DNA of 64,000 bases from Ornithinimicrobium murale (GTDB taxonomy: Bacteria; Actinomycetota; Actinomycetes; Actinomycetales; Dermatophilaceae). The stretch covers positions 1 to 64,000 of the forward strand of contig NZ_QLVD01000023.1 in the NCBI RefSeq assembly GCF_003352835.1. Direction: 5' to 3'. How positions within the stretch are numbered: position 1 is the first letter of the stretch; each line of letters starts with the position of its first letter. Below are positions 4,171-61,367 of this stretch, one piece after another. Made by a program: the position numbers and the translations under genes. The notes under the pieces were generated by a model that had not been told where the DNA came from, did not search any database, and was given only the letters and a program-made list of their open reading frames with translations.

Positions 4171-6291
4171 ATGCCCGTGCCGACCCACCGACCAGATGTG
4201 CCCCCGCCGCTGGGCGTCACCCTCCACAACGGGACGGCGGACGTGTCCGTCCTGGCCACCCACGCCGAGGCCGTCGAGCTGTGTCTCTTCGATGACGACG
4301 GGGCCGAGCGGCGGATCCCGTTGTCCCGCAAGGCCTACGGCATCTGGTGGGACGTCGTGGAGGGAGTCCGACCCGGCCAGCGCTACGGCTTCCGGGTGCA
4401 CGGCCCCTGGTCACCCGAGCAGGGACACCGACACAACCCCGCCAAACTGCTCCTCGACCCGTATGCCGGGGCGATCGCCGGCGACGTCCGCTGGGGCCCG
4501 GAGGTGTTCGGCCACGTCGTGGACCAGGAGTGGAACGGCGACGGTGCCGTCCAAGACGACCGGGACAGTGCGGCATACGTCCCGCGGTCGGTGGTGGTCG
4601 ACCACGGCACCTTCGACTGGGGGCAGGACAGCTCCCCCTCGCGTCGGTGGACCGAGTCGGTGATCTATGAGGCCCACGTGCGCGGGCTGACGATGCGGCA
4701 TCCGGACGTGCCCGAGGAGATTCGGGGCACCTATGCGGCACTGGGGCACCCGGCCGTCCTGGAGCACCTGCGTGACCTGGGTGTCACGACCCTGGAGCTG
4801 CTGCCGATCCATGCGTTCACCCATGAGCCGCACCTGGTGCAGGGCGGGCTGGTCAACTACTGGGGCTACAACACGATGGGCTTCTTCGCGCCCCACGCGG
4901 GCTACGCGGCGGCCCAGGACCCGCAGGGAGTGGTGGACGAGCTCAAGGGTGCGATCAAGGCCCTGCACGGCGCCGGCATCGAGGTCGTGCTCGACGTTGT
5001 CTACAACCACACCTGCGAGCAGGGTGCCAACTCGGGCGCGACGCTGTCCTGGCGCGGGCTGGACAACGCGACCTACTACCGGCTGGACGAGCGCGGCCAC
5101 GACATCGACGTCACCGGCTGCGGCAACACCGTCGACCTGCGAGAGCCGATGGTCGCCAAGATGGTGCTGGACTCGTTGCGGCACTGGGTGACCGAGTTCC
5201 ACGTCGATGGGTTCCGCTTCGACCTGGCTCCGGCCCTCGCCCGCGGCCGAGACGACGCTTATGACCCGGACCACGCCTTCCACGTGGCGCTGCGCACCGA
5301 CCCGGTGCTGTCCCGGGTGATGCTCATTGCCGAGCCCTGGGACGTCGGTGTGCACGGGTGGCGCACCGGGCAGTTCCCGCCGCCGTTCGCCGAGTGGAAC
5401 GACCGCTTCCGCGACGCGGTGCGCACCTTCTGGCTGCCCGACACCGCGCGCGTTCTGCGCGGGGAGACCGGGCACGGCGCACGAGAGCTGGCGACCCGGC
5501 TTGCCGGGTCCGCCGACCTCTTTCACCGGGACGACCGGGGCCCGATCGCCTCCCTCAACTTCGTCACGGCCCACGACGGGTTCACGCTCGCCGACACCAC
5601 GGCATACGAGCAGAAACACAACGAGGCCAATCGGGAGGGGAACCGGGACGGCCACGGCGACAACCGCAGCTGGCACCACGGCGTCGAGGGGCCGACCGAC
5701 GACCTCGACATCCTCGCGGCGCGGCGTCGTTCGGTGCGCAATCTGATGGCGACCAACCTGCTGGCAGCAGGCGTGCCGATGATCACCGCCGGCGACGAGT
5801 TCGGTCGGACGCAGGGCGGGAACAACAACGCGTACTGCCAGGACAACGAGATCAGCTGGCTGGACTGGGCCGCCGCGGACGCCGACCTGGTCGCCACCAC
5901 GGCGCGGCTGCTGGAGCTGCGCCGGGCCCACCGGGTGCTGAGGCCACCGGAGTTCCAGACCTTCGAGGCTGTGCGCGGCCACGTGCGGCTGCGCTGGTTC
6001 GGGGTCGATGGCGAGATCCTGACCGAGGGGCAGTGGTCGGACCCGGCACTGCGCACCCTCGGGGCACTCTTTGATGGCCGCGACCTGGTGGACTCACCCG
6101 CCGACGCGGCAGACCTGGTGCTGGTCGTGGTCAACGGCGCGACCGAGGAGGTCACGGTGCGGTTCCCCGACACCGGCGGCGCCCACCCGTGGCGCCTGGA
6201 GTGGGACAGCACCTGGGAACGGCCGCAGGACCCCGGGCCCGTTGGCAAGGAACTGACGATGGGCCCCGTGTCCCTCGCCGTCCTGTCCTAA
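4171..6291 (+). CDS. glgX: Glycogen debranching enzyme GlgX
   Basis: 706-residue GH13 isoamylase-type debranching enzyme, normal GlgX length. It hydrolyses alpha-1,6 branch points of glycogen, mainly limit branches left by phosphorylase. The N-terminal CBM48-like domain (about 10-110) is followed by the TIM barrel. The four GH13 regions are visible: LDVVYNHT, GFRFDLAPAL with the nucleophile near Asp351, LIAEPWDVG with the acid/base near Glu388, and TAHDGF with Asp469. It is transcribed towards glgP, with the pathway genes glgE-treS-mak/glgB beyond. The stop codon TAA runs directly into repeat element E1. Leaderless start (TAGGCT 6 nt upstream). Confidence 0.97.
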   Translation: MPVPTHRPDVPPPLGVTLHNGTADVSVLATHAEAVELCLFDDDGAERRIPLSRKAYGIWWDVVEGVRPGQRYGFRVHGPWSPEQGHRHNPAKLLLDPYAGAIAGDVRWGPEVFGHVVDQEWNGDGAVQDDRDSAAYVPRSVVVDHGTFDWGQDSSPSRRWTESVIYEAHVRGLTMRHPDVPEEIRGTYAALGHPAVLEHLRDLGVTTLELLPIHAFTHEPHLVQGGLVNYWGYNTMGFFAPHAGYAAAQDPQGVVDELKGAIKALHGAGIEVVLDVVYNHTCEQGANSGATLSWRGLDNATYYRLDERGHDIDVTGCGNTVDLREPMVAKMVLDSLRHWVTEFHVDGFRFDLAPALARGRDDAYDPDHAFHVALRTDPVLSRVMLIAEPWDVGVHGWRTGQFPPPFAEWNDRFRDAVRTFWLPDTARVLRGETGHGARELATRLAGSADLFHRDDRGPIASLNFVTAHDGFTLADTTAYEQKHNEANREGNRDGHGDNRSWHHGVEGPTDDLDILAARRRSVRNLMATNLLAAGVPMITAGDEFGRTQGGNNNAYCQDNEISWLDWAAADADLVATTARLLELRRAHRVLRPPEFQTFEAVRGHVRLRWFGVDGEILTEGQWSDPALRTLGALFDGRDLVDSPADAADLVLVVVNGATEEVTVRFPDTGGAHPWRLEWDSTWERPQDPGPVGKELTMGPVSLAVLS

Positions 6292-6344
6292 TTTTGGGGA
6301 GGTTCGGACCGGCCCTCGCGCGATCTTGGGGAGGTTTGGACCGG
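6291..6344 (+). repeat. Stop-proximal repeat element E1 (two direct units)
   Basis: Two units of the dispersed family with core TTTTGGGGAGGTTCGGACC, at 6291-6312 and 6322-6344, separated by a CCCTCGCGCG-type spacer. The first unit shares its first base with the TAA stop of glgX. E1 faces E2 (7748-7803), which has the opposite orientation next to the glgP stop; together they bracket 1.4 kb. Confidence 0.85.
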
Positions 6345-6367
6345 TCCCGCACCCGTGGCATGGGCTG

Positions 6368-6697
6368 GTGCGGTACATCCGTGCCACGTGGCTGGATCCG
6401 GCTGCCCGCACCGAAAGGCATCTTCCTGGGGACGCCAACGACGCGCGCAGTCTGGCGCTGCGCGAGGCGGTGCGCTCCGAGGCAGAGGACCCGACCTTCA
6501 TCGGTGTCCAGGTGCCCGACGGAGCCGACCGAGCGGCATACAAGAATGCGCTCACCCGGGCCTGCGCATCGGCCGGCCTCCTGGCAGGTGACTTCATCGG
6601 GCAGCCAAGCCTGGGACCACCGGATGATGATTCGATCGACAGCACATGGCTGAGCACGGCGCTCGCTCAGGTGCAGGTGGCCGACGGCGACGAGTAG
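6368..6697 (+). CDS. Hypothetical protein in the E1-E2 insert
   Basis: 109-residue reading frame of unknown function starting with GTG at 6368 (VRYIRATWLDPAART); a TTG inside the repeat would extend it by 14 residues. No membrane segment or known motif was recognised. The composition is ordinary soluble protein (DPTFIGVQVPDGADRAAYKNALTRACASAG), with an acidic C-terminus. It is convergent with the nuclease-like gene, whose stop is 7 bp away, which supports it as a real gene filling the space. There is no clear ribosome-binding site. It might be an accessory partner of its neighbour; this is speculation from location only. Confidence 0.45.
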   Translation: MRYIRATWLDPAARTERHLPGDANDARSLALREAVRSEAEDPTFIGVQVPDGADRAAYKNALTRACASAGLLAGDFIGQPSLGPPDDDSIDSTWLSTALAQVQVADGDE

Positions 6698-6704
6698 CGG
6701 CGGG

Positions 6705-7628
6705 TCACCAGTCCTCGACCTCGGGGCAGATCCACGCATCGAGGCGGGCGTCTCTCCGGAGAGCCTCGGCATGCTGCTCGAGCAGGATCGCCTCGGTCCG
6801 GGGCCGGTCCTCGTTCCAGACCTCGGCGATCGTCATGTTCATACCCCGCAGCCGGGTCGCGCGCTGTTCGTCGAGCTGTCCCGCTAAGTCGACGCGATGC
6901 GGGAAGCCCTGGTACTCCCCCACCAGCCCCGTCTCTGGATCGCACAGGTCCACGCGTGCCACGAAGTGTCCGAGTCGGTCGTAGACCGGCTGGTTCACGA
7001 CGGGTGCGGGCAGCCCTGCTTGGATCCAGTGATAGCGCATCTCGCTCTCTGGCACCGACTCCGCCCGGGCGCTGATGTGCGGAAAGAGCGCGCGGACCTG
7101 GGCCAGCCGGTGCAGGCCACCCAGCGGGTCCAGGAAGTCTGCGAACGGGTCACGCTGGATCATCCCGAACCGCGCGCCCACGTCCAGCATGCCCAGGCGC
7201 GTGCCCGCGGTGGGCGCCCAGCGGGCCAGATCGAGCGTCGTGCGCGGCCCGCTCGTGACGAGGAACCCATCCACCTCCTCCCTGTGGGACTCGGGCACCC
7301 TGGACCGCCGGATGCGCAACCCACGCGTGTCATAGCTGCCGACGTCCGCTGGGACACTGAGGTCGATCGGCTTCAGCGTGCTTCCGTCCGTGGTGCCATC
7401 GAGGAACCTGGGGGTCACCCCGTGCACCACGGCGGCGGCCCAGCCCGACAGCACGGCACCGGCGGGGGCGCGCTCCATTGCGGCCCGCGCCCGCAGCAGC
7501 CGCAGGTCATCCGGCGGGTCTCCGAGCACCCGAACGCCCGGGACACCCGGAACCCGCAGCAGACTGTTCGTCGCCCGCTTGGACATTCCTCTGCTGCGCA
7601 GCTCTGCTGTTCTCGCAACCTCGAACAT
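6705..7628 (-). CDS. AbiEi/DUF559-like protein with putative nuclease-type C-terminus
   Basis: 307-residue protein of a family widespread in actinobacteria and often labelled AbiEi-type antitoxin or DUF559/endonuclease-like. The N-terminal part has a winged-helix-like start (VARTAELRSRGMSKRATNSLLR) and the AVLSGWAAAVVHGV segment typical of this group. The C-terminal part (about residues 215-290) has E in ESEMRYHW, RVDLCDPE and GEYQGFPHR, resembling the E/D...EYxG arrangement of Vsr/PD-(D/E)XK-related folds. Assignment is by pattern; nuclease activity is not shown. The ATG at 7628 has an excellent ribosome-binding site (GGGAGGTGG, 4 nt away), which decides the start. It sits between inverted repeats E1 and E2. 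Confidence 0.65.
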   Translation of the reverse strand: MFEVARTAELRSRGMSKRATNSLLRVPGVPGVRVLGDPPDDLRLLRARAAMERAPAGAVLSGWAAAVVHGVTPRFLDGTTDGSTLKPIDLSVPADVGSYDTRGLRIRRSRVPESHREEVDGFLVTSGPRTTLDLARWAPTAGTRLGMLDVGARFGMIQRDPFADFLDPLGGLHRLAQVRALFPHISARAESVPESEMRYHWIQAGLPAPVVNQPVYDRLGHFVARVDLCDPETGLVGEYQGFPHRVDLAGQLDEQRATRLRGMNMTIAEVWNEDRPRTEAILLEQHAEALRRDARLDAWICPEVEDW

Positions 7629-7747
7629 GTGCCACCTCCCGCCAGGCAGCATGGGGTGGGCACGGCAGATGGCGCCAGCACCCCGGAGGGTCCTGTGGAC
7701 AACGTCCAGTCGCCGGGGAGGCTGGGGACGACGGGTCCAGGGTTGCG

Positions 7748-7803
7748 GCGGTCCAAACCTCCCCAAAAAGGCGCGCGAGGCGGTCCAAACCTCCCCAAAA
7801 ATG
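7748..7803 (-). repeat. Stop-proximal repeat element E2 (two direct units, minus orientation)
   Basis: Units at 7748-7769 and 7781-7803 (33 bp pitch), reading away from the glgP stop codon: on the minus strand TAA is followed directly by CCCATTTTTGGGGAGG. The spacer has the GCGCGC core seen at E1 and E6. A weakly similar stretch in the opposite orientation lies at about 7711-7738. Confidence 0.85.
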
Positions 7804-7805
7804 GG

Positions 7806-14225: not shown

Positions 14226-17200
14226 ATGCCCACGCTGACACCGTCGTTCGCGGAGTTCCTCCCCACCTGGGTCGCCTCCCAGCGCTGGTTCACCGGCAAG
14301 GGCCGCACCCCCTCGTTGCGCCGGGTCGGTGGCTACCGTCTGGAGGACCCGGCCGGCGAGGTCGGCATCGAGATCCACCTCGTGGTCGACGAGTCCGGCC
14401 CGGCGCCGGTGACCTACCACGTGCCACTCACCTACCGCAGCGCGGCGGACCCCGAGCTGCACACCGCCCTGGTGGCCACCACCGAGCACTCCGAGCTGGG
14501 CACCCGGTGGGTCTACGACGGCTGCCACGACCCCGTCTATGTCCAGGCCCTGGCCGACCTGATGCACTCCGGGGCCACCGTGAGCGGCGACGCGGACACC
14601 GAACTGACCGGCAGCGCCACGACGACCCGGTCGCAGGGGCCACGGCCGCTGGTGCGCCGCAGCGCCGTCCTGGTCGGCGAGCAGTCCAACACCTCGATCA
14701 TCGTGGAGACCGGCGAGCCGGGCCAGTCCGCGCCGGTCATCATCAAGGTCTTCCGGGTGCTGCAACCCGGCGAGAACCCCGACGTCGCGGTGCAGAGCGC
14801 GCTGGCCGAGGCCGGGAGCACGCTGGTCCCGCAGCCGGTCGGCTGGGTCACCGGCACGTGGCACGCGGGCGACACGCTCGCCCAGGGGCACCTGGCCTTC
14901 GCCCAGGAGTTCCTCCCCGGTGTGCAGGACGCCTGGCGCATCGCCCTGGTCGCCGCGCGGGACGACACCGACTTCACCTCCCGGGCCCGTGAGCTGGGCA
15001 CCGCTACGGCGCAGGTGCACGCCACCCTGCGCGAGGCCTTCGGCACCGAGGAGCTCACCCCGCAGCGGCGCGCGGGCCTGCTGGCGCGGTTGCGGGAGCG
15101 GCACGCGGAGGCCCGGGAGGCTGCCCCGGAGCTGCAGGAGTATGACGCGCAGGTCACCTCGGTCTTCGAGGCCGCCGAGTCCGCGGCCTGGCCGCCCCTG
15201 CAGCGCGTGCACGGGGACTACCACCTGGGTCAGGTGCTCGACGTCCCCGACCGGGGGTGGGTCCTGGTCGACTTCGAGGGCGAGCCGCTGCGACCGCTGG
15301 ACGAGCGCTCCCTGCCGGACGTCGCGCTGCGCGATGTCGCGGGCATGCTGCGCTCCTTCGACTACGCCGCGGGATCCCTGGCCCAGGACCACTCGGTCGA
15401 CCGGAGCCGCTGGTCCCGCGCGACCCGCGAGGCCTTCCTGGCGGGGTATGCCGAGGCCTCCGGAACGGACCTGTCCGCATCGGCCGCGGTGCTGGCTGCC
15501 CTGGAGCTGGACAAGGCGCTGTACGAGGTGGTCTACGAGACCCGCAACCGGCCCGGCTGGGTCGCCATCCCGGTGGCCGCGGTCCGCGAGCTGGTGGGAG
15601 ACTCCGTGACCAACGGGCCGGCTCACCCCCATTTTGAGGGAGGTTCGGATCGCGCTGTGACCATTTTTGGGGACGATCGGACCGGGTCTGACTCGCTCAG
15701 TCCGGTCGGCCCCGAGAGCGGGAGCGAGGGTGCGGGCGACGTCGGGAGCGAGCCAAACCTCCCCAAGAATGCGCATGAGGCGGTCCGAACCTCCCCAAAA
15801 ATTGGGGAGAGGCCGCTCGCGGAGGGCGAGGTGGAGCTGCTGCTGCGGGGGCTGCACCGCGACCCGCACTCCCTGCTGGGTGCCCACCCGCACGACGGCG
15901 GCATCACCATCCGGGCGCTCCGCCCCCTGGCCGAGTCGGTCACGGTCCTGCTCTCCGGGGGCGAGCGTCACCCGATGCGCCACGAGACCCACGGCATCTG
16001 GACGGCCGTGCTGCCGCGCACCGACATCCCCGACTACCGGCTCGAGGTCACCTGGGGCGACGGGGTGGGGCACCAGCAGGACGACCCCTACCGCTTCCTG
16101 CCCACCCTCGGCGAGATGGACCGGCACCTGATCGGCGAGGGCCGGCACGAGCAGCTCTGGACGGTGCTCGGCGCGCACCTGCGGACCTACGACGGCCCGC
16201 TGGGGCAGGTCCGGGGCACCAGCTTCGCCGTCTGGGCCCCCAACGCCCGAGGCGTGCACGTGGTCGGTGACTTCAACCAGTGGGACAACACGGCACACCC
16301 CATGCGGGTCCTCGGCGAGAGCGGGATCTGGGAGATCTTCCTGCCCGATGTCTGGGCCGGCAACCGCTACAAGTTCGACATCACCGGACCGGACGGGCAC
16401 CGGCGGCTCAAGGCCGACCCGATGGCCCGCGCCGCGGAGGTGCCGCCGAGCTCGGCCTCGATCGTCACCCACGACTGGCACGAGTGGGGTGACCAGGACT
16501 GGATGGAGCGACGCGCCAGCACGGACCCGCACACCGGGCCGATGAGCATCTACGAGGTGCACCTGGGCTCCTGGCGCCAGGGCGCCTCCTACCGCGACCT
16601 GGCCGAGCAACTGACCCGCTACGTCACCCAGATGGGATTCACCCATGTCGAGCTGATGCCGGTGATGCAGCACCCCTACGCCCCGTCCTGGGGCTACCAC
16701 GTGACCGGCTACTACGCCGCCGACTCCCGCTTCGGCTCCCCCGACGACCTGCGCTACCTGATCGACCGGCTGCACCAGGCCGGCATCGGGGTCATCCTGG
16801 ACTGGGTGCCCGGGCACTTCGCCACCGACCCTTGGGCACTGGCCCGGTTCGACGGCACCCCGCTCTACGAGCACCCGGACCCGCGCCGCGGCTGGCAGAA
16901 CGAGTGGGGCTCCTACATCTTTGACTTCGGTCGACCCCAGATCCGCAACTTCCTGGTGGCCAACGCCCTGTTCTGGCTGGAGGAGTTCCACGCCGACGGA
17001 CTGCGCGTGGACGGTGTCGCCTCGATGCTCTACCTCGACTACTCACGCAACGAGGGCGAGTGGCTGCCCAACAAGCACGGCGGCCGCGAGCACCTCGAGG
17101 CGGTGGCGCTGCTGCAGGAGACCAACGCCACCGCCTACCGCCGCAACCCCGGCGTGGTCATCATCGCCGAGGAGTCGACGTCCTGGCCGGGGGTGACGCG

Positions 17201-18122
17201 CCCGACCTCATCAGGCGGGCTGGGCTTCGGCTTCAAGTGGAACATGGGGTGGATGCACGACTCGCTGGACTACATCGCCCGGCAGCCGGTCCACCGGCAG
17301 TACCACCACCACCAGATGACCTTCTCGTTGATGTATGCCTTCTCCGAGCAGTTCGTGCTGCCGATCAGCCACGACGAGGTCGTCCACGGCAAGGGCTCGC
17401 TGCTGCGCAAGATGGGCGGCAGCGACCGGTGGCAGATGCTGGCCAGCCTCCGTGCCTACCTGGCGTTCATGTGGGCCCACCCCGGCAAGCAGCTGTTGTT
17501 CATGGGCCAGGAGTTCGCCCAGATCGCGGAGTGGGCCGACGGACGCAGCCTGGACTGGTGGCTGCTGGACCAGCCGGCGCACGTCGGCGTCCAGCACCTG
17601 GTGCGCGACCTGAACCTGACCTACCGGGAGACGGCCGCCCTGTGGCAGCTGGACCACCAGAGCTCGGGCTTCCAGTGGCTGGACGCCGACGACGCGCGGG
17701 GCAACACCTTCAGCTTCGTGCGCTACGGCACCGAGGACGAGGCCGGGCACCGCCCGGTGCTCGTCGCGGCCGCCAACTTCGCCGGGACCCCCCGTGAGGT
17801 CCGTCTCGGGGTCCCGCGACCCGGCCGCTGGCAGGAGGTGGTCAACACCGACGCCCACGCCTATGGCGGCTCCGGCGTCGGCAACCTGGGCTCGGTGACC
17901 GCCACCGACCAGCCGCACCAGGGTCAGCCCCACTCGCTGACCCTGACCCTGCCGCCGCTCGGGGTGCTCTGGCTCGTGCCCGAGGCGACCGGTGCGACGA
18001 CCACCGTCGATGCCCTGCCCACCGACAGGCCCGCGGAGGTGACCGCCCGGAAGCAGCCGGCTGACGGCATACCGGAGCAGTCACCTGCGGACCACACCGC
18101 CCCGTCCACCACCAAGGAGTAG
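14226..18122 (+). CDS. Fused maltokinase / 1,4-alpha-glucan branching enzyme (Mak-GlgB)
   Basis: One 1298-residue frame. Residues 1 to about 465 are maltokinase (Mak/Pep2), which makes maltose-1-phosphate: a maltokinase N-cap, then the kinase [10 protein letters not shown] (Asp331) and VDFEGEP (Asp349). Residues about 530-1260 are GlgB: N-terminal CBM48 modules, a GH13 barrel with [10 protein letters not shown] (nucleophile Asp929), IIAEEST (Glu982) and [11 protein letters not shown] (Asp1050), and a C-terminal beta domain. Residues about 468-528 are translated from repeat element E3, so the linker is repeat DNA in an open frame. An internal GTG at 15831 with GGAGG 5 nt upstream could also give free GlgB. 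In most actinobacteria these are separate genes. Confidence 0.93.
15629..15805. repeat. Repeat element E3 inside the mak-glgB frame (two plus two inverted units)
   Basis: Plus-orientation units at 15629-15652 and 15661-15684, a 64-bp GC-rich spacer, then inverted units at about 15753-15771 and 15781-15805. The pitch within each pair is 32 bp. The architecture is identical to E4 between convergent genes, but here the frame stays open and the element encodes about 60 residues. At other loci the first unit abuts a stop codon; here the equivalent position reads CAC/CCC and no stop is present. Confidence 0.85.
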
Positions 18123-26038: not shown

Positions 26039-26154
26039 GCGCCTAACCTACGACGGATCACCGACGGTGGCTACGGCTCCGCCCGCACCCCGACACCGGG
26101 CCCGTGATGGCCAGGACCGGGAAGCCCCGCCCGGGAGGCGCACCACCGGGTCAC

Positions 26155-26422
26155 GGGCACGGAGACGACTTCTACCCACCGCCTGGCGAGACCCTGGGCA
26201 GGACCCGGGCACGGGGACGACTACTACCCACCACCGGGCGAGACCCTGGGCAGGACCCGGGCACGGGGACGACTACTACCCACCACCGGGCGAGACCCTG
26301 GGCAGGACCCGGGCACGGGGACGACTACTACCCACCACCGGGCGAGACCCTGGGCAGGACCCGGGCACGGGGACGACTTCTACCCACCACCTGGCGAGAC
26401 CCTGGGTAGGACCCGGGCACGT
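26155..26422. repeat. 52-bp tandem repeat, about five copies
   Basis: Copies begin at 26185, 26237, 26289, 26341 and 26393 (exact 52-bp spacing), preceded by a degenerate partial copy from 26155. The unit starts GGCGAGACCCTGGGCAGGAC and ends with GACTACTACCCACCACC. Three inner copies are near-identical; the outer ones carry substitutions. 52 is not a multiple of three and no frame has sensible protein, so it is noncoding. It fills most of the 424-bp gap between the meaB stop and the GNAT start. A likely variable-number locus. Confidence 0.93.
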
Positions 26423-30999: not shown

Positions 31000-32641
31000 T
31001 GATGGGCCGGTGAGCGAGGGAGAAGCCACAGCAGGCTCGGGGGACGCCGGTCGGTCGTCAGGGAGCACCGGTCGGGCTTCCGGGGGCGCCGGCCAGGCAT
31101 CAGAGGAGACCGGTCAGGGCACGGGGGGCACTGGTCGGCGACGACTACGGCTGCCTTCCCTAGGGCGCGGCGACGACGGCGTGGGCGTGCGCGGGCGGGG
31201 CCGTGAGGCGGTGGAGAGCTGGCGCCGCTACCGCGAGACCCAGCTGAGCGAGCTGGCCGAGAGCAACCGGCTGCAGCGGGAGATGGTCGAGCGCCGACAC
31301 CTCGCCCCACCCCCACAGACCACGCTGCCCGGGCTGGCCGGGACCGGGTCGGACCGGGCGGCCGCGGACGCGACGGGGGCGAGCACGACGACGGGAGCCA
31401 GCACGGCGGGGGCGAGCACGACGACGGGAGCCAGCACGGCGGGGGCGAGCACGACGACGGGGGCGAGTCAGACGGGGACGAGCACAACGGGGACGAGCGC
31501 AGAAGCTGGCGGGGCGACGACCGGGGAGGGCACCGGGAGGGCACCGGGAGCGCCCGGGGGCCCGCAGCCCGAGGAGCCGATCGTCGAGCGGCGACGCGAG
31601 ATGATGATGGTGACCTCGCCGTTCATGTTCGGCTTCTTCGGCGCGCTCGGCGTCCTGGTGGCCTGGTGGCTCGCCCAGAACGTCTCCCAGCTCAGCTCGG
31701 TGATCACCTTCGTGGTGATCGCGATCTTCCTCACGCTGTCGCTGAACCCGATCGTGGAGAGCCTGACCCACCGCGGGATGAACCGGTCCAGCGGCGTCTT
31801 CACGGTCTTCGTCGGGCTGATCCTGGTGCTCGGCCTGTTCAGCTGGCTGGTCGTGCCGACCATCGTCTCGGAGACCTCGACGCTGATCGAGCGGGCGCCG
31901 CGCTATGTCGAGGACCTGGGCAACCAGGAGTGGGTGACGCGCCTGGATGCGGAGTATGACGTCAGCAGCCGCCTCGAGACCGAGTTCGAGAACCGCCTGC
32001 AGGACACCACGTTCATCTCGACCATCTTCGGGGGCGTGCTCGGCGCGGCCGGAGCGCTGGCCGGTGGCCTCATCGGCGCCTTCACGGCGCTGGTCCTGAC
32101 CCTGTACTTCCTGGCCGCGCTGCCGACCGTCAAGGACGCCGCCTACAAGATCGTGCCGCTGAGCCGGCGGGCGCGGGTCATCGGGCTCGCCGAGGAGATC
32201 ATGCGCCGGGTGGGTGGCTATGCCCTGGGTCAGGTCGCGGTGGCGACCATCAACGGCACCTGCTCGTGGATCATGATGCAGCTGCTCGGCGTGCCCTACG
32301 CGATTGTGCTGGCCGTCCTCGTCGGGATGCTGGGGCTGATCCCCCTGGTCGGTGCCACCCTCGGCGCGGTCATCGTGGCCCTGGTGGCCCTGAGCCAGGG
32401 CTGGGTCATCGCCCTGGTCGTCTGCATCTACTACCTCGTCTACCAGCAGTTCGAGAACTACGTGATCGTGCCGCGCATCATGGCGCGGACCGTCTCGGTG
32501 CCCGGAGCGGTCACTGTGGTCGCGGTGCTGGCCGGGGGCACCCTGATGGGCGTGCTCGGCGCGCTCGTGGCGATCCCCGTCGCGGCGGGCATGCTGCTGC
32601 TCTACAACGAGGTCGTCGTCCCCCGCCAGAACCGCCTCTGA
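30992..32641 (+). CDS. AI-2E/PerM-family transporter with long low-complexity N-terminus
   Basis: About 549-residue protein. The C-terminal about 360 residues have seven to eight transmembrane helices and family signatures: TFVVIAIFLTLSLNPIVESL, TLYFLAALPTVK, GYALGQVAVATINGT, GLIPLVGATLGAVIVAL and QFENYVIVPRIMARTVSVPG. AI-2E-family exporters handle autoinducer-2 or other small solutes or ions; the substrate is unknown. The first about 200 residues are cytosolic, Gly/Ser/Thr-rich and contain an 11-residue repeat (GASTTTGASTA) encoded by a 33-bp minisatellite. The start is uncertain: ATG 30992 or GTG 31010, both overlapping or abutting the mce stop. The stop codon abuts repeat E4. Confidence 0.88.
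   Translation: MGDDGPVSEGEATAGSGDAGRSSGSTGRASGGAGQASEETGQGTGGTGRRRLRLPSLGRGDDGVGVRGRGREAVESWRRYRETQLSELAESNRLQREMVERRHLAPPPQTTLPGLAGTGSDRAAADATGASTTTGASTAGASTTTGASTAGASTTTGASQTGTSTTGTSAEAGGATTGEGTGRAPGAPGGPQPEEPIVERRREMMMVTSPFMFGFFGALGVLVAWWLAQNVSQLSSVITFVVIAIFLTLSLNPIVESLTHRGMNRSSGVFTVFVGLILVLGLFSWLVVPTIVSETSTLIERAPRYVEDLGNQEWVTRLDAEYDVSSRLETEFENRLQDTTFISTIFGGVLGAAGALAGGLIGAFTALVLTLYFLAALPTVKDAAYKIVPLSRRARVIGLAEEIMRRVGGYALGQVAVATINGTCSWIMMQLLGVPYAIVLAVLVGMLGLIPLVGATLGAVIVALVALSQGWVIALVVCIYYLVYQQFENYVIVPRIMARTVSVPGAVTVVAVLAGGTLMGVLGALVAIPVAAGMLLLYNEVVVPRQNRL
31376..31474 (+). repeat. 33-bp coding minisatellite in the AI-2E-family gene
   Basis: Three units begin at 31376, 31408 and 31441 (about 33 bp), followed by decayed units to about 31500. 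They encode GASTTTGASTA repeats in the cytosolic N-terminal region. Because the unit is a multiple of three, copy-number change would alter length without a frameshift. Confidence 0.85.
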
Positions 32642-32773
32642 CCCATTTTTGGGGAAGTTCGGACCGCTTCAAGCCCATTTCTGGGGAGGATCGGACCGCA
32701 CGCATCCACCGGGAGGTGGTCCAGACCTCCCCAAAATCATGCCGGGCGTGTTCCAAACCTCCCCAAGAATGGG
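32642..32773. repeat. Repeat element E4 between convergent stops (two plus two inverted units)
   Basis: Plus units at 32642-32666 and 32674-32698; inverted units at about 32718-32740 and 32751-32773. The element fills exactly the gap between the TGA of the AI-2E-family gene (32639-32641) and the TGA of the convergent membrane gene (32774-32776): both stops are followed directly by CCCATT-C/T-TTGGGG. This is the cleanest example of the family. Transcripts from either side could fold into a long hairpin, so bidirectional termination is one reading. Confidence 0.9.
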
Positions 32774-33226
32774 TCAGGCGACGGGGACCCAGCGGGACAG
32801 CTCGACGAGCGCGATGTGCCGCGCCTGCGGTGTGCCGGTCAGCGCGACGATCCCCCAGCCGTTCCTCAGGTGGACCGTCAGCATCGTGGGATGCGACGGA
32901 TCCGGCGTCCCGACTCCGCTGATCTCCTCGTAGGGCAGATGCTTGGGGCCCCGCAGGGCGCGCGTGTACCGCAGGCCGTCGGGGGCGACGGTCAGGGTGC
33001 CGCGCACGGCATACTGCGCGAGCGCGAGCCACGGCAGGCCCGAGCGCACGACCGAGATCTGCCGGGTCGGGATCGTGGCAACCGGCCCCTGCGGCCCGGG
33101 CACCACCGTCGGCTCCGGAGTCGGTTGGCGGTGATAGCGCAGGATGAAGAACCCGACCCCGGCGATGAAGGCCCCCACGGCCACGAGGATGCCCACCACC
33201 AGCAGGACCAGGGCGGTGTCACTCAT
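32774..33226 (-). CDS. Small membrane-anchored hypothetical protein
   Basis: 150-residue protein with one N-terminal transmembrane helix (residues about 5-30, LVLLVVGILVAVGAFIAGVGF), a proline-rich stalk (HRQPTPEPTVVPGPQGP) and a C-terminal domain of about 90 residues with strands VRGTLTVAPDGLRYTRAL and HPTMLTVHLRNGWGIVALTG, resembling a PH-like (bacterial pleckstrin homology) fold. That resemblance is structural guesswork. The ATG at 33226 overlaps the stop of the upstream zinc-ribbon-like gene by 4 nt. The stop abuts repeat E4. Confidence 0.75.
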   Translation of the reverse strand: MSDTALVLLVVGILVAVGAFIAGVGFFILRYHRQPTPEPTVVPGPQGPVATIPTRQISVVRSGLPWLALAQYAVRGTLTVAPDGLRYTRALRGPKHLPYEEISGVGTPDPSHPTMLTVHLRNGWGIVALTGTPQARHIALVELSRWVPVA

Positions 33227-35927: not shown

Positions 35928-35984
35928 CCCATTCTTGGGGAGGTTTGGAACGCCCTGTGCGCATTTTTGGGGAGGATCGGATCG
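35928..35984 (+). repeat. Stop-proximal repeat element E5 (two direct units)
   Basis: Units at 35928-35952 and 35962-35984. The first follows the nucS TGA with no gap. The spacer CCCTGTGCG is of the same type as in E1/E6. No inverted partner is nearby; the ggt-family ATG is 24 bp further on. Confidence 0.85.
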
Positions 35985-36007
35985 TCCGGTCGGGGCACAA
36001 TCACCCC

Positions 36008-50701: not shown

Positions 50702-50725
50702 CGCACCAGTTTCCCACCCCCACCC

Positions 50726-50850
50726 GACCGAGCGCGCCGGGACTCGAATTTTCACCCGACCGAGCGCGCCGGGACTCGAATTTTCACCCCACCGAGCGCG
50801 CCGACACCCGACTCTCACCCCCACCGAGCGCACCGACACCCGAGACGCCC
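50726..50850. repeat. 32-bp tandem repeat (four copies) upstream of sua5
   Basis: Copies begin at 50726, 50758, 50790 and 50822, exact 32-bp pitch. The first two are near-identical (core GCGCCGGGACTCGAATTTTC); copies 3 and 4 have diverged (ACACCCGACTCTCACC). It lies between the divergent sua5 and pentapeptide-repeat genes and covers half of the 250-bp gap. Pitch and a GCGCGC core recall the E1-E7 family, but the sequence is different. Confidence 0.9.
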
Positions 50851-50951
50851 GCTCACAACCGGGTTCGGCCGCCATTCTGAGTGCCTGAGCACGCTGTTGG
50901 GCGGCCACTAGCCTGGGCATGCCCGTCAGTGCTGCGTGTCAGGATCCTCGT

Positions 50952-52838: not shown

Positions 52839-52908
52839 CGCGGTCTCCGGCCGGAGAGGGCGCGCCCGCCTGTGCGACGGACCGACCCTCCTGACACGCT
52901 GCGCAGGG

Positions 52909-52997
52909 CGGTCCGAGCCTCCCCACAAAGGCGCGCAGGGCGGTCCGATCCTCCCCAAAAAAGCGCGCAGGGCGGTCCGAACCTCCCCAAAAATTGG
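52909..52997 (-). repeat. Stop-proximal repeat element E6 (three direct units)
   Basis: Units at 52909-52929, 52941-52962 and 52973-52997, pitch exactly 32 bp, oriented away from the prfA stop (minus-strand TGA followed directly by CCAATTTTTGGGG). A decayed fourth unit is visible at about 52877-52897. The spacers are GCGCGCAGGG. It separates prfA from prmC, normally adjacent or overlapping genes. Confidence 0.88.
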
Positions 52998-54202: not shown

Positions 54203-54211
54203 TGCAAAGTT

Positions 54212-54588: not shown

Positions 54589-55233
54589 ATGGCCACCGAC
54601 GCCGACCACGGTCAGCACCACCACGAGGACCACCCCGAGTTCAGCGAGCTCTCCCCGATGGACGCCCGCGTCCGGGCACTGGAGACGCTGCTGACCGAGA
54701 AGGGCCTGGTCGATCCTGCGGCGCTCGACGCGATCGTGGAGCGCTACGAGACCGAGGTCGGGCCGCACAACGGAGCCCAGGTGGTGGCGAGGGCGTGGAC
54801 CGACCCGGCCTACCGCGAGTGGCTGCTCACGGACGCCACGGCCGCCATCGCCTCCCTGGGCCACGTGGGCCGGCAGGGCGAGCACATGGTCGCTGTGGAG
54901 AACACCGCAGACCGGCACAACATGGTCGTCTGCACCCTGTGTTCCTGCTACCCGTGGCCCGTCCTGGGACTGCCGCCGGTCTGGTACAAGGCGCCGGCCT
55001 ACCGCTCCAAGGCGGTGATCGACCCGCGCGGCGTGCTCGCCGACTTCGGTGTCACCCTGCCCGACGAGACGGAGATCAAGGTGTGGGACTCGACCGCGGA
55101 GGTGCGCTACCTCGTCATTCCCCGTCGCCCCGGGGGGACCGATGACCTCACCGAGGACGAGCTCGCCGCCCTCGTCACCCGCGACTCCATGATCGGCACC
55201 GGCCTGGCCCTGTCCCCGCAGGGGGCGTCGTGA
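54589..55233 (+). CDS. nthA: Nitrile hydratase alpha subunit, cobalt type
   Basis: 214-residue catalytic subunit hydrating nitriles to amides. The metal-binding claw [17 protein letters not shown] has Cys115, Cys118, Ser119 and Cys120; Thr116 in C-T-L-C-S-C marks the cobalt type (iron enzymes have Ser). Cys118 and Cys120 are the residues oxidised to sulfinate/sulfenate in characterised enzymes. The N-terminus is His-rich (GQHHHEDH). TACGCT ends 6 nt before the ATG (leaderless). The stop overlaps the beta-subunit start as GTGA. First gene of a three-gene operon; no amidase is encoded alongside. Confidence 0.95.
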
Positions 55234-55877
55234 ACGGCGTCCACGACCTCGGGGGGCTGCAGTCCTTCGGGCCGGTCCTCCCCGAGCCGGACGAGCCCGT
55301 CTTCCACGAGGAGTGGGAGCGGCGCGCCCTGGCGATCACCCTTGCCCTCGGCGCACTCGGGCAGTGGAACATCGACCAGAGCCGGCACGCGCGCGAGAGT
55401 CTGCCGCCGGCGACCTACCTGTCCAGCAGCTACTACGAGATCTGGGTGCGTGGCCTCGAGACCCTGATCGCCGGCACCGAGATCATGGAGCAGGGTGACC
55501 TGCGGGCGCGGACCGGTGAGGAGCTGCTGGCCGGCGTCTCGGCGCAGGGCACCTACGAGCGACCCACCGCCCGCGAGCCCCGGTATGCCGAGGGGCAGGC
55601 CGTGCGCGCCCGTGACCTCAACCCGGTGGGCCACACGAGACTGCCCCGGTATGCGCGGGGCCGGGTCGGCACGATCGTCGCCGTGCGCGGGGCGCACGTC
55701 TTCCCCGACCGCAACGCGGTGCCCCCGGGTGAGGTCCCGGACCAGGAGCCGGAGTGGCTCTACACGGTCGAGTTCACCGGGCGGGAGCTGTGGGGCGAGG
55801 ACGCCGACCCGACGCTGACCGTGTCGGTCGAGGCCTGGGAGCCCTACCTGCAGCCCGTCCCTCAGGAGCCTCGGTGA
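55230..55877 (+). CDS. nthB: Nitrile hydratase beta subunit
   Basis: 215-residue beta subunit: N-terminus [16 protein letters not shown] is diagnostic, followed by [32 protein letters not shown] and [15 protein letters not shown] (helical half). The C-terminal SH3-like half has [31 protein letters not shown] and [30 protein letters not shown]. It caps the alpha-subunit active site. The GTG start overlaps the alpha stop by 4 nt, and its own stop overlaps the accessory gene in the same way. Confidence 0.95.
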
Positions 55878-56732: not shown

Positions 56733-56757
56733 GAAAGGACTCCTTGCCGAACGTGAC

Positions 56758-56816: not shown

Positions 56817-56823
56817 CGGCACC

Positions 56824-57318
56824 ATGCTGGGCAAGACATACGACAGTCAGGTCTGTTCGATCGCCCGCGCCCTGGAGATCGTGGGCGAGCGGTGGAGTCT
56901 GTTGGTCATCCGCGACGCGCTGTTCGCCGGCGTCACCCGCTTCTCCGACTTCCAGCACAACCTGGGCATCGCGACGAACGTGCTGCAGTCGCGGCTCGAC
57001 AGCTTTGTCGAGGCCGGCCTGATGGAGCGGCCCGGAGAGCCCCGGCAGCGCGACTACGTGCTGACGGAGATGGGGCGCGACCTGGCGCCCGTGCTCGTGG
57101 CCCTGACCGAGTGGGGCGACCGCTGGGCGGCCCCCGGCGAGCCGCCGATCCTGTATCGCCACCAGGGTTGCCCGGAGCCGGTCCACGCGGTGGCCCGCTG
57201 CGCCACGCACGGTGACCTGGCCCCCGCCGACATCACGGTCACGATCGGCCCCGGCATGCCCGCCGACTATCTCGCGGGACGACGACCACGCCGCGACGGC
57301 GCAGCGCAGCCCTCCTGA
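56824..57318 (+). CDS. HxlR-family transcriptional regulator
   Basis: 164-residue winged-helix regulator: MLGKTYDSQVCSIARALEIVGERWSLLVIRDALFAGVTRFSDFQ is the HxlR domain start (VCSIARALEIVGERWSLLVIRD), followed by the wing (GLMERPGEPRQRDYVLTEMGRDL). The C-terminal about 55 residues carry HQGCPEPVHAVARCATHGD, with two cysteines plus histidines that could bind metal or sense redox. Leaderless start with TACGAT 7 nt upstream. It is divergent from the SRPBCC gene and next to the nitrile hydratase operon; it likely regulates SRPBCC and itself. Control of nthAB is unproven. Confidence 0.92.
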   Translation: MLGKTYDSQVCSIARALEIVGERWSLLVIRDALFAGVTRFSDFQHNLGIATNVLQSRLDSFVEAGLMERPGEPRQRDYVLTEMGRDLAPVLVALTEWGDRWAAPGEPPILYRHQGCPEPVHAVARCATHGDLAPADITVTIGPGMPADYLAGRRPRRDGAAQPS

Positions 57319-57322
57319 CACA

Positions 57323-57360
57323 CGTGTGGCCCGGCTCCCCGAGGGGAACCGGGCCACACG
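57323..57360. terminator. Bidirectional terminator between hxlR-type gene and rho
   Basis: CGTGTGGCCCGG (57323-57334) pairs perfectly with CCGGGCCACACG (57349-57360); the inner CCCC/GGGG extends the stem. It starts 5 bp after the regulator stop and 40 bp from the convergent rho stop. Confidence 0.8.
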
Positions 57361-57399
57361 GCATACGAGATCAGGCGGCCGGAGGCCGTCCGGGGGTGC

Positions 57400-59508
57400 T
57401 CAGTCCTCGTCGTCGAGCTTGACCGAGGAGGTCTGCTGCACCTGCACGAGGAACTCGTGGTTGGACTTGGTCTTTCGGAGCCGGTCCAGCAGCAGCTCGA
57501 CGGCCTGCTGGGAGTCGAGCGCCGAGAGCACGCGGCGCAGCTTCCACATGATCTTCAGCTCCTCGGAGCCCATCAGGATCTCCTCGCGGCGCGTGCCGGA
57601 GGGGTTCACGTCGATGGCCGGGAAGATGCGGCGGTCCGCCAGCTGGCGGGACAGGCGCAGCTCCATGTTGCCGGTGCCCTTGAACTCCTCGAAGATGACC
57701 TCGTCCATCTTGGAGCCGGTCTCCACCAGGGCGGTCGCCAGGATGGTCAGCGAGCCGCCGTGCTCGATGTTGCGGGCGGCACCGAAGAACCGCTTCGGCG
57801 GGTAGAGCGCGCTGGAGTCGACACCACCGGACAGGATGCGCCCGCTGGCCGGGGCGGCCAGGTTGTAGGCGCGACCCAGGCGGGTGATCGAGTCGAGCAG
57901 GACGACGACGTCGCCGCCCATCTCGACCAGACGCTTGGCCCGCTCGATGGCCAGCTCGGCCACGGTGGTGTGGTCGTCGGCCGGACGGTCGAAGGTGGAG
58001 GCGATGACCTCACCCTTGACCGTGCGCTGCATGTCGGTGACCTCCTCGGGGCGCTCGTCCACCAGGACGATCATCAGGTGCGCCTCGGGGTTGTTCTGCG
58101 TGATCGCGTTCGCGATCGACTGCAGGATGAGGGTCTTGCCCGCCTTGGGCGGGGAGACGATCAGGCCACGCTGTCCCTTGCCGATCGGGCTGACCAGGTC
58201 GATCATCCGCGTCGTCAGGTTCTTCTGCTCGGTCTCCAGCCGCAGACGGTCCTGGGGGTAGAGCGGGGTCAGCTTGGAGAACTCCGCACGGCCCTTGGCC
58301 TCCTCCGGGGACTGGCCGTTGACAGTGTCGAGACGGACCAGTGCGTTGTACTTCTGGCGGTCGCCGCGCCCCCCGGAGTGCTGCTGCTGGCCGTCGGCCT
58401 TGATCGCACCGGTGACCGCGTCACCCTTGCGCAGACCGTTCTTGCGGACCATGCCCATCGGGACGTAGACATCGCTCGGGCCGGGCAGGTAACCGGTGGT
58501 GCGGATGAAGCCGTAGTTGTCGAGGATGTCCAGGACACCGGCGACGGGGACGAGCACGTCCTCCTCGCTGTAGCTGGTCTCCTGCTCGTCGGCGTAGTTG
58601 TCGTTGTCGCCCCGGTTACGACCGCGCTTGCGGTCCCGGCCCCGCTGACGGCTGCGGCGGCGGCCGCGGCCACCGTCCTCGTCGTCGAAGCGGTTGCCGC
58701 GGTTGTTCTGGCCGCCCTGGCGGTTGTCACCCTGGCGGTTGTCACCCTGGCGGTTGTCGTCGCCGCCCTGCCGGTCCTGCTGACCACCGCGGTTGTCCTG
58801 GCGGTTGTCGTCACGGCCACCCTGCTGGTTGCCGCCCTGGCGGTTGTCGTCACGGCCACCCTGCTGGTTGCCGCCCTGGCGGTTGTCCTGCTGGCCACCG
58901 CGGTTGTCCTGCTGACGGTTGTCCTGGCGGTTGTCCTCACCGCCGCCCTGCTGGTTGCCGCCCTGGCGGTTGTCCTGCTGACGGTTGTCGCGCTGGCCAC
59001 GGCCCTGACGGCCACTGTCCCGGGACTCGTCCCGGCCACCATCGCGGGACTCGTCGCGCGGCTCACGGTCCTGGCGGGGCTGCTGGCTGTCAGAGTCGCT
59101 CGGAGCGTCCTGCGCGGGGGCGCTGTCGTCCTTGCCCGCGGCGCGTGACTGCGGCGCACCGGCCGCAGCTGCGACACGGCGCGAGCGGCGCGGCGCCCGC
59201 TGCTCGGGCTCCGTGGCGCCTGTCCCCTCAGCGGCCTGGGGAGCGGTGGAACGGTCGTTGGTCTGAGGCGTCTCGTCGCGCGCCGCGGCCGGAGCGGCCT
59301 TCTCGGCGGCTGGCGCAGTCTTGCTGGTCGCGGTCGTGTTGCCGCCCTCCCGCCTGGCCCTGATCGCTTCGACGAGGTCCGCCTTACGCATCTTGGGAGA
59401 CACGGTGATGCCCATGCTCCCGGCCAGGGACTGCAGCTCAGCAACGCGCATCGAGCTCAAAGAGCCCCCGGAGCGGCTCGGTGCAGCGGTTTCGGTGGTG
59501 TCTGTCAC
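57400..59508 (-). CDS. rho: Transcription termination factor Rho with large low-complexity insertion
   Basis: 702-residue Rho (E. coli 419). The N-terminus (MRVAELQSLAGSMGITVSPKMRKADLVEAI) is the Rho N domain, with an Ala/Pro stretch after it. Residues about 140-300 are an Arg/Asn/Gln/Gly/Asp insert (GGNQQGGRDDNRQ units), then RRRSRQRGRDRKRGRNR. RNA-binding and ATPase domains follow: GYLPGPSDVYVPMGMVRKNGLRKGDAV, Walker A LIVSPPKAGKT (about 450), MIVLVDERPEEVTDM, GGVDSSALYPPKRFFGAARN (the Q/R-loop region). Actinobacterial Rho proteins carry such inserts, which raise RNA affinity. GTG 59508 is chosen because upstream codons lack Rho homology. Confidence 0.96.
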   Translation of the reverse strand: MTDTTETAAPSRSGGSLSSMRVAELQSLAGSMGITVSPKMRKADLVEAIRARREGGNTTATSKTAPAAEKAAPAAARDETPQTNDRSTAPQAAEGTGATEPEQRAPRRSRRVAAAAGAPQSRAAGKDDSAPAQDAPSDSDSQQPRQDREPRDESRDGGRDESRDSGRQGRGQRDNRQQDNRQGGNQQGGGEDNRQDNRQQDNRGGQQDNRQGGNQQGGRDDNRQGGNQQGGRDDNRQDNRGGQQDRQGGDDNRQGDNRQGDNRQGGQNNRGNRFDDEDGGRGRRRSRQRGRDRKRGRNRGDNDNYADEQETSYSEEDVLVPVAGVLDILDNYGFIRTTGYLPGPSDVYVPMGMVRKNGLRKGDAVTGAIKADGQQQHSGGRGDRQKYNALVRLDTVNGQSPEEAKGRAEFSKLTPLYPQDRLRLETEQKNLTTRMIDLVSPIGKGQRGLIVSPPKAGKTLILQSIANAITQNNPEAHLMIVLVDERPEEVTDMQRTVKGEVIASTFDRPADDHTTVAELAIERAKRLVEMGGDVVVLLDSITRLGRAYNLAAPASGRILSGGVDSSALYPPKRFFGAARNIEHGGSLTILATALVETGSKMDEVIFEEFKGTGNMELRLSRQLADRRIFPAIDVNPSGTRREEILMGSEELKIMWKLRRVLSALDSQQAVELLLDRLRKTKSNHEFLVQVQQTSSVKLDDED

Positions 59509-59854
59509 GAAGGTTTCCTTCTCCCTCGGAGGGGCCCGCACCATGCGTGGCCCAGGGGTAACAAGGGTGATCCGGCTCTTGCCGGCCCGAGTGGGAATCA
59601 CCGACCAGTGCGAGGCGATGTGACCACGCGAGAAGCGCGTGGCTGCACCACATGCATGGTGGTGGGATCACTACACGAGAACCACGGGCTGATCCCGCAG
59701 CGTCATTCGCGAGTGTGTCTTCACGGTATCACTTGTTGGTCCACACCTCGAATACGCGCTCCGACACACCGGTGGCAGGCCACCCCGGGCACACCTGTGG
59801 CAGGCCCGCCGGGGACATCGGACTGGCGGGAGCGTCGGGGCTCCGGTCCGTGGC
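59509..59854. other. Rho upstream region (346 bp, no gene)
   Basis: No convincing frame on either strand. Near the aldehyde dehydrogenase stop are two imperfect direct repeats of about 24 bp (GTGGCAGGCC-type, at about 59769 and 59797). In the middle GATACC on the minus strand (about 59725-59730) could be the rho -10. The remainder would be a leader of roughly 200 nt, consistent with known autoregulation of rho through its leader in other bacteria. Confidence 0.4.
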
Positions 59855-61309
59855 TCAGCCGAGCTTGACGTTGACCTGCTTGATCTGGGTGAACCCTTCC
59901 AGCATGCCCTCCAGGGAGAGCTCGCGACCGATGCCGCTGGTCTTCATGCCACCGTAGGACTGGCCGACGACCTGACCGCCGCCCTGGTTGACCTGGACCC
60001 AGCCGGAGTCGATCTGGTGGGCCATTGTCAGCGCGCGGTCCAGATTCTTGGAGAAGACGAACGCCGCCAGGCCGTAGTGCGAGTCGTTGGCCATCGACAC
60101 GACCTCTTCCTGGCCCTTCCACGGGATGACCGCCAGGACGGGCCCAAAGATCTCCTCCTGCGCGATCCGCCAGTCATTGGAGACCTGGGTGAGGATCATC
60201 GGCGCGTGGTAGAACCCAGGCGGACCGACCTGCAGGGCCGGCCGACCGTCATACGCCACCTCGACGCCCTCCTGAGCGAGGCCGTCCTCGATGTAGCCCT
60301 GCACCCGGTCCCACTGCTTGGCGTTGATGATGCAACCGATGTCGGAGGCCTCCTCGCGGGGGTCGCCCACGACCAGCTGCTCGGTGCGGGCGACCAGCTT
60401 GGCGAGGAACTCATCGTGCACCTCCTCGTGCAGGAACAGGCGTGAGCCGGTGGTGCAGCTCTGGCTCTGCCGGGCGAACCGACTCGCCAGGAGCACCTGC
60501 TCGACGACCTCGTCGGTGCACGAGTCGGCGTCCACGATGCAGGGCGACTTGCCGCCGAGCTCCAGGGAGGTGTGCGCCAGCCGGGCCCCGGCCTTGGCTG
60601 CCACCTGGTGCCCGACGAGCGTCGACCCGGTGAAGGAGACCTTGTCCACGTCCTCGTGCTGGACGAGGGCCTCGCCGATCTCGGCGCCGTAGCCGGTGAC
60701 GACATTGAGCACACCGGGTGGCAGGTGCTCGGCGCAGATCCGGGCGAGCTCCAGGATGGTCAGCGGTGCGTCCTCGGCAGCCTTGAGCACCATGGTGTTG
60801 CCGGCCACGAGGGCGCCGGGCACCTTGAACCCGGCAATCATCAGCGGGCTGTTCCACGGCAGGATGCCGGCGACGACCCCGAGGGGCTGGCGCCTGGTGT
60901 ACTGCAGCTGGCCGTCGGCGGTCGGCAGCACGGTGCCCTTCACCTCGCCCGCGACTCCCGCCATATAACGGAAGCACGCGACCAGGTTGAGCGCCTCCGG
61001 GCGGGCCTGGGTCCGGATCGCGTTGCCGGTGTCCAGGGCCGTCAGCGTGGCCAGGTCCTCGACGTGCTCCTCGAGGGAGTCCGCGATCCGCAGGAGCGCC
61101 CGCTGGCGCTCGGTGAAGGACAACGCGGCCCAAGCCGGGAACGCAGCCCGGGCTGCCCTCACCGCTCGATCGGCGTCCTCGGCCCGGGCACGCGGCGTCG
61201 TGGCGATCACCACGTTGCGGTCGGTCGGTGTGATCACCTCGAGGGTCTCACCGGATGCCGCAGGCACCCACTCGCCGCCAATGTGCATCAACTGCTCGTC
61301 CACGTCCAC
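59855..61309 (-). CDS. Aldehyde dehydrogenase family protein
   Basis: About 484-residue NAD(P)-dependent ALDH. Oxyanion Asn in GILPWNSPLMIAGFK, cofactor segment VSFTGSTLVGHQVA, general base Glu in SLELGGKSPCIV, catalytic Cys in SQSCTTGSRLF, and the EEIFGPVLAVIPW and SGIGRELSLEGM segments are in order. Substrate unknown; the AMxG/betaine-aldehyde-like group is possible. It occupies the place of thrC-thrB between hom and rho. The start is ambiguous: GTG 61309 (used), GTG 61303 or ATG 61288; none has a good ribosome-binding site, and the first abuts repeat E7. Upstream readthrough of the frame translates E7 and is rejected. Confidence 0.9.
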   Translation of the reverse strand: MDVDEQLMHIGGEWVPAASGETLEVITPTDRNVVIATTPRARAEDADRAVRAARAAFPAWAALSFTERQRALLRIADSLEEHVEDLATLTALDTGNAIRTQARPEALNLVACFRYMAGVAGEVKGTVLPTADGQLQYTRRQPLGVVAGILPWNSPLMIAGFKVPGALVAGNTMVLKAAEDAPLTILELARICAEHLPPGVLNVVTGYGAEIGEALVQHEDVDKVSFTGSTLVGHQVAAKAGARLAHTSLELGGKSPCIVDADSCTDEVVEQVLLASRFARQSQSCTTGSRLFLHEEVHDEFLAKLVARTEQLVVGDPREEASDIGCIINAKQWDRVQGYIEDGLAQEGVEVAYDGRPALQVGPPGFYHAPMILTQVSNDWRIAQEEIFGPVLAVIPWKGQEEVVSMANDSHYGLAAFVFSKNLDRALTMAHQIDSGWVQVNQGGGQVVGQSYGGMKTSGIGRELSLEGMLEGFTQIKQVNVKLG

Positions 61310-61310
61310 T

Positions 61311-61367
61311 CCAATTCTTGGGGAGGTTTGGACCGCTCCATCACCATTTTTGGGGAGGATCGGCACG
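61311..61367 (+). repeat. Repeat element E7 (two direct units) between hom and the aldehyde dehydrogenase
   Basis: Units at 61311-61335 and 61344-61367 (33 bp pitch), oriented from the aldehyde dehydrogenase start towards the hom stop (9 bp away), i.e. antisense to both genes. This is the only element not reading away from a stop codon; it resembles one half of an inverted pair whose partner is missing. Confidence 0.85.

Follow-up and report, generated by a model that had tools for sequence, protein, structure and literature searches.

Dispersed repeat arrays of 32-bp pitch at gene edges in Ornithinimicrobium, with motifs that differ between species

The Repeat Arrays of the Window

The stretch of DNA analyzed here (the window) comprises 64,000 nucleotides of contig NZ_QLVD01000023.1 of Ornithinimicrobium murale, in which an original prediction, made from the sequence alone, had recognized a dispersed family of short repeat units. 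All seven of its loci (E1 to E7) carry the repeats where they had been placed, two of them (E3 and E4) with two direct plus two inverted units as described, and of the approximately 19 units reported, 18 match a 19-letter core at no more than 3 mismatches (chance mean 0.01) and the 19th (15750, minus strand) has 4. The spacing between units, given as 32 +/- 1 bp, is exactly 32 bp in all 10 of the window spacings measured. Tandem Repeats Finder likewise reports a period of 32 at 52901-52993 (E6) and also at 50721-50843, an array absent from the earlier list. In what follows, genomes are designated by number, G000 being that of the window (Ornithinimicrobium, 3.29 Mb, 75% complete) and G008 that of Ornithinimicrobium cavernae, of the same genus (99% complete). 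The arrays of the window are as follows.

6289..6344, + strand: E1, two units after glgX (NCBIfam), with the stop TAA inside unit 1; G008 has an array here too
7748..7805, - strand: E2, a pair of units immediately 3' of the stop of glgP (alpha-glucan phosphorylase)
15629..15685, + strand: E3a, two units, in frame within the maltokinase-GlgB open reading frame (ORF) 14226-18122
15748..15805, - strand: E3b, an inverted pair of units in the maltokinase-GlgB linker that holds E3a; shared by G008, and present with a different motif in G015
32642..32699, + strand: E4a, a pair of units immediately 3' of the stop of an AI-2E family transporter gene
32716..32773, - strand: E4b, a pair of units immediately 3' of the stop of the convergent gene 32774-33226
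35928..35985, + strand: E5, two units directly after the nucS stop; none seen in six relatives
50715..50852, + strand: additional array of about four units at 32 bp, motif CACCCGACCGAGCGC..., by eye like family D (see below), beside the start of a Sua5/YrdC-domain gene
52908..52997, - strand: E6, three units directly after the prfA stop; period 32 in Tandem Repeats Finder
61311..61368, + strand: E7, a pair of units adjoining the start of the aldehyde dehydrogenase gene 59855-61309 (minus strand) and facing the stop of a homoserine dehydrogenase gene

The claim that the first unit follows immediately upon a stop codon stands for five loci with six arrays, namely E2, E4a, E4b, E5 and E6, in which the unit begins directly after the stop, and E1, in which the stop TAA lies within the unit; it does not extend to E3, which lies inside an ORF, or to E7, which lies at a gene start. 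At the place of the additional array 50715-50852, G010 and G019 have a single TGCGTTCGGTCGG-like element. The arrays were rightly distinguished from clustered regularly interspaced short palindromic repeats (CRISPR), as they consist of 19-letter cores and 13-letter spacers at dispersed sites, with spacers that recur within longer arrays; the CRISPR pattern of identical repeats and unique spacers was not found.

Copy Number and Array Structure

In G000 the 19-letter core yields 106 matches at no more than 3 mismatches, and a reversed control yields 0. Arrays were collected from the window and from 20 further G000 stretches and 20 G008 loci, each of these picked for holding matches, and the resulting set comprises 59 arrays with 145 units. 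With single-unit matches excluded, the pitch is exactly 32 bp in 81 of 86 spacings, the remainder being 31 (three), 37 and 23. Arrays mostly contain 2 to 8 units, which resemble one another within an array, and the letters of the spacers vary at near-constant spacer length. The outer end of the first unit is distinct (CC[C/A/T]A[T/A]TTTTGGGG), GCGC being more frequent at that position in later units. Three sites (L026 2234, L026 5767 and L028 2477) have a unit plus its downstream flank in common, pointing to occasional copying of longer stretches. When a named genome collection was searched with the pair pattern, 12 stretches were found, all from O. cavernae, in a collection that may omit the window's own genome.

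Position Relative to Gene Edges

Gene positions were taken from a simple codon-model caller of our own, which is uncurated and errs at some loci (e.g., L031). By these calls, 33 of the 59 arrays lie after a same-strand gene, 23 after an opposite-strand gene and 2 inside an ORF, and 1 is without an upstream gene. Among the 33 same-sense arrays, the distance to the stop is between -5 and +6 nt in 29 (p ~5e-28 when placement is assumed to be uniform across 150 nt), the start is exactly 5 nt ahead of the T run in 20 (TGA|CCCATTTT, the unit following the stop without a gap), and the stop TAA falls within the unit in 6; convergent sites account for 20 of the 33. For the 30 arrays without an adjacent stop, the other strand was read by eye, whereupon approximately 13 were seen to have a ribosome site, promoter or start near the unit, several opposite-strand arrays being reversed against the ribosome site or promoter of their gene, and the remainder had an indistinct gene edge. 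We propose the rule that the outer end of an array abuts a gene edge, be it a stop or a start, and that the array points inward. Stop-codon anchoring is one case of such gene-edge anchoring, and E7 is the start case. E3 is the most telling exception, as both of its arrays lie in frame within the maltokinase-GlgB ORF in G000 and G008, and one recurs with another motif in G015. In G011, 13 units stand between NuoB- and NuoC-domain genes.

Motif Families and Pitch Across the Genus

Six motif families (A-F), alike in architecture and different in letters, were counted in Ornithinimicrobium, with a pitch of 31-33 bp, about three helical turns, in five and of 22 bp, one turn less, in the sixth, that of two species. 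Family A, that of the window, occurs at no more than 2 mismatches as 92 units in G000, 64 in G008, 4 in G006, 3 in G010 and 7 in G015, and at this threshold is absent (0 units) from the other 26 of the 31 genus genomes and from 27 genomes outside the genus. Family B numbers 61 in G010 and 0-3 elsewhere; family C, 29 in G006, 23 in G015, 16 in G023, 4 in G019 and 2 each in G008 and G010; family D, 62 in G011, 42 in G018, 29 in G030, 26 in G029, 17 in G028, 16 in G012 and 14 in G021 (reversed controls 1 to 4 in those seven genomes, 0 to 5 overall); family E, 30 in G016 and 0-4 elsewhere; and family F, 60 in G002, 28 in G025 and 0-1 elsewhere. Minority copies are also present, namely a B/C-like array after the AI-2E gene in G008, the main family of which is A, and one B pair in G000.

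Listed coordinates of neighbors less than 40 bp apart place the pitch of family B at 32 in 12 of 16 spacings and 31 in 4 of 16, and that of family C at 32 in 10 of 10. The pitch of family D in G011 is 32 in 114 of 116 spacings (at loci picked by matches), that of family E, read from the match list, is 31 in 8 and 32 in 5, and that of family F, from listed coordinates with multiples set aside, is 22 in 21 of 22 and 23 in one. In the orientation CCCACCGAGCG, 6 of 22 same-sense family D arrays lie exactly 1 nt from the stop, with a wider scatter than in family A, and in one family F array the first unit contains the stop TGA. By eye, the opening of F resembles that of D (CCGACCGGACACGCG), the two pitches being 10 bp apart. 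Larger intergenic arrays with a pitch of 30-31 and palindromic units (GGCAC..GTGCC) were also observed in G033, of another genus in the same family (L100 15940-19921 and L125 2843-16325).

Periodicity was also scanned without recourse to any motif. Between genes, lag 32 ranks first in the window and likewise in G006, G010 (level with 64) and G015, at 100 kb per relative, and 31/32 leads in G016; the DNA of each relative included one 20-kb stretch picked around glgX. In 80 kb each not picked for arrays, counts are weaker (4 in G010 and 3 in G015 at lag 32; 3 in G016 at lag 31). In 100 kb of G002, 8 are found at lag 22 and 7 at lag 44. These motif-free scans gave nothing at lags 31-33 in G004, G014 and G025, the last of which does hold family F by pattern search.

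Arrays at Orthologous Places

Different motifs occupy orthologous places, an observation as direct as those of the arrays themselves, their positions and their pitch. Upstream of the cysteine desulfurase gene, at least one unit is present in 7 of 7 close species, before the same GATGAT and in like orientation, each with its own motif; G015 has one degenerate unit there and G023 a weak periodicity, and no array was seen by eye in the other 23 loci. A different, GGTGCACAACCTTGCCCAGG-like element, inverted in G026, lies upstream of the same gene in G026, G007 and G021 (L223, L227 and L231, respectively). By eye, arrays are visible on the 3' side of glgP in 10 of 19 loci, including 7 of 7 close species, and on the 3' side of glgX in 9 of 30 loci. 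On the 3' side of prfA they occur in G000, G008, G010 and G006 and are missing from G013 and G016 (4 of 6; G015 and G019 unreadable), after the AI-2E gene they occur in G000, G010 and G008 and in none of four others, and at the place of E7 they occur in G000 and G006 and in neither G010 nor G019. Given this mixture of presence and absence, array places reflect inheritance in part and gain or loss in part. Unit number likewise varies between orthologous arrays (2/3, 3/4).

In nine orthologous G000/G008 pairs, differences fall at 31 of 342 core versus 16 of 72 spacer positions (p 0.003), and between loci of G000 identity is 90% in cores and 44% in spacers, random intergenic octamers showing 28%.

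Interpretation and Rival Explanations

The best explanation, in which our confidence falls just short of evenly balanced, is that the units may be double-stranded sites for a putative sequence-specific protein that would occupy adjacent sites along a single face of the helix. Such a protein would form a short lattice, mostly of 2 to 8 units, from the gene edge into non-coding space, with binding that would be cooperative and confined to one DNA face. Arrays lie within an ORF and upstream of starts, which argues for action at the level of DNA, and a same-face reading is suggested mainly by the near-constant spacer length and by the 10-bp difference in pitch between D and the D-like F; spacing near whole helical turns (32, 31 and 22 bp) despite variable spacer letters is what a phased array presents. 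The lower divergence of cores than of spacers in the nine orthologous pairs, and arrays of differing motif at the cysteine desulfurase, glgP and prfA places, speak on the same side. The role would likely be chromosome organization or insulation of neighboring genes, and promoters next to reversed arrays might be affected as well. Drift of the protein's specificity between species would leave one main motif per genome while the pitch stays near whole turns. Of the three ideas in the original prediction, a binding array for a DNA- or RNA-binding protein is the best supported; protein binding, the reading of DNA rather than RNA, and the role are what we infer. The original observation is confirmed and its interpretation supported in part.

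Several results weigh against this explanation. A number of places are empty in close species, the nucS array being found in G000 alone of seven; units were found by core likeness, so that core conservation is partly built in (a bias to which the near-constant spacer length is less exposed); and identical 8-letter spacers occur in four locus pairs versus 0.5 expected, an excess indicating that some copying occurs. Lag 32 is weak in the unselected 80 kb of G006 (1), G011 (1) and G012 (0). As just two pitch classes were seen inside the genus, the whole helical turns may be coincidence, and the G033 arrays, which may be unrelated and show no tie to gene edges, have a pitch of 30, corresponding to no whole number of turns. 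Moreover, no binding protein was found among the candidates examined, which were DUF559 proteins and the neighbors of long arrays. DUF559 proteins were rejected as the partner, with no hit above threshold in G000 and one in G008, and repeats at lags 26-36 in the 20 loci covered by that check look coding or unrelated by eye. Pfam likewise gave no shared DNA-binding family in 10 of the 12 genes flanking six long arrays, the domains found there being radical SAM, DUF4870, YchJ, peptidase M20, NuoC, NuoB, tRNA-editing, LigD polymerase, AMIN-like and UDG.

The main rival, which we consider rather unlikely, is a satellite without a function of its own, produced by tandem duplication of fixed length, spread and homogenized by recombination and tolerated where harmless. 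The differing unit numbers of orthologous arrays, the likeness of units within an array, the excess of identical spacers, the minor copies of other families within genomes and the failure to find a partner among DUF559 proteins and long-array neighbors all accord with it, but it leaves unexplained that 29 of 33 arrays keep to a range of -5 to +6 nt around a stop, that spacers vary in letters and not in length, and that places are kept over seven species despite the change of motif. Precise placement after stops, the 20 of 33 convergent sites and the C-run/AT-rich/G-run of the first unit, which could pair, would also suit an RNA-level 3' element acting in the mRNA after the stop as a terminator, stabilizer or translation brake. 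A role of this sort has been proposed for repetitive extragenic palindromic (REP) sequences near stop codons, and those within 15 nt of a stop affect translation (PMC12306157). An RNA-level element is nonetheless improbable here, given E3 inside an ORF, the reversed arrays before starts and the 13 G011 units flanked by NuoB- and NuoC-domain genes. The T11-A16 pair is held in just 68% of 138 distinct units, with no more than one unit changed on both sides, the fold z score averages -0.9 in sense (20% of arrays below -2) and -0.5 in antisense (13% below -2), and Rfam 15 at its gathering score returned nothing in the window and two tRNAs only in six array-bearing loci.

A bidirectional terminator, one of the roles originally suggested, is unlikely as a rule because of E3 and the G011 units, as well as the arrays upstream of starts or promoters. 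The unit, moreover, has its T run before the G-rich part, the reverse of an intrinsic terminator, in which a T run comes after a G+C-rich hairpin. Quite improbable, too, is a mobile element similar to REPs or to miniature inverted-repeat transposable elements, with outward-facing ends and a transposase acting in trans. Its dispersed, species-specific occurrence, the like ends that face outward in some double arrays (E3 and E4) and the presence that varies between close species (nucS and E7) are as expected of such an element, yet most arrays are one-sided, many places are common to several species, and neither the exact 19-mer in viral contigs nor one eight-unit array in plasmids or phages found a match. 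A search aimed solely at the Y1 transposase family (PF01797), which includes REP-associated tyrosine transposases (RAYTs), found it in 0 of 31 genus genomes, among them the 75% complete G000, in 2 of 27 other genomes and in 5 of 14 control genomes. The mobile palindrome of the original prediction, resembling REPs or bacterial interspersed mosaic elements (BIMEs), is thus disfavored: many intergenic copies, often near stops, are present, and the RAYT gene and conserved stem-loop were not found.

Comparison with Known Systems

Oligomeric DNA-binding proteins of the Lrp type occupy phased arrays in which repeated sites lie approximately three helical turns apart. The Ornithinimicrobium motif differs in being much longer and unlike, in standing at dozens of gene edges and in varying between sister species, and its protein is putative. 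Mycobacterial interspersed repetitive units (MIRUs) are actinobacterial tandem repeats at gene junctions, with a unit of other length and sequence. In eukaryotic satellite DNA libraries, related species share a repeat set in differing amounts, with likeness within arrays, whereas the Ornithinimicrobium arrays are tiny, dispersed and set at gene edges. With REPs and BIMEs, the arrays share many short, species-specific intergenic copies, frequent location soon after stops and regular composite spacing (PMC2817692; PMC12306157); they differ in that no RAYT was found, in lacking a conserved stem, in being mostly direct tandems at 32 or 22 bp and in occurring also before starts and inside an ORF. 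Among the matches listed, the open-licence literature yielded no description of these arrays.

Other Features of the Window

A tandem repeat of period 52 (5.2 copies, 96% matches) spans 26154-26421, and another of period 33 (91% matches) spans 31371-31498, upstream of the AI-2E transporter gene or within its long ORF. The region at about 54640-55850 resembles nitrile hydratase genes carried on plasmids, from rhizobia among others, at 70-71% identity.

Significance

Taken more broadly, and more tentatively, Ornithinimicrobium may possess a gene-edge system in which a putative DNA-binding protein builds short phased lattices at starts and stops, the recognized sequence being replaced genome-wide between sister species and the spacing shifting only by a whole turn (32 to 22). 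If so, the protein and its sites would be coevolving simultaneously at dozens of places. Should selection act on the pitch while sequence turnover is unconstrained, the architecture itself would be the functional trait, and the specificity of one protein would have been rewritten at dozens of chromosomal places from one close relative to another. For annotators, species-specific intergenic repeats may be one system masked by motif turnover. The arrays would then offer a tractable bacterial case of genome-wide coevolution between sites and a protein, and would represent a novel type of boundary for bacterial genes.

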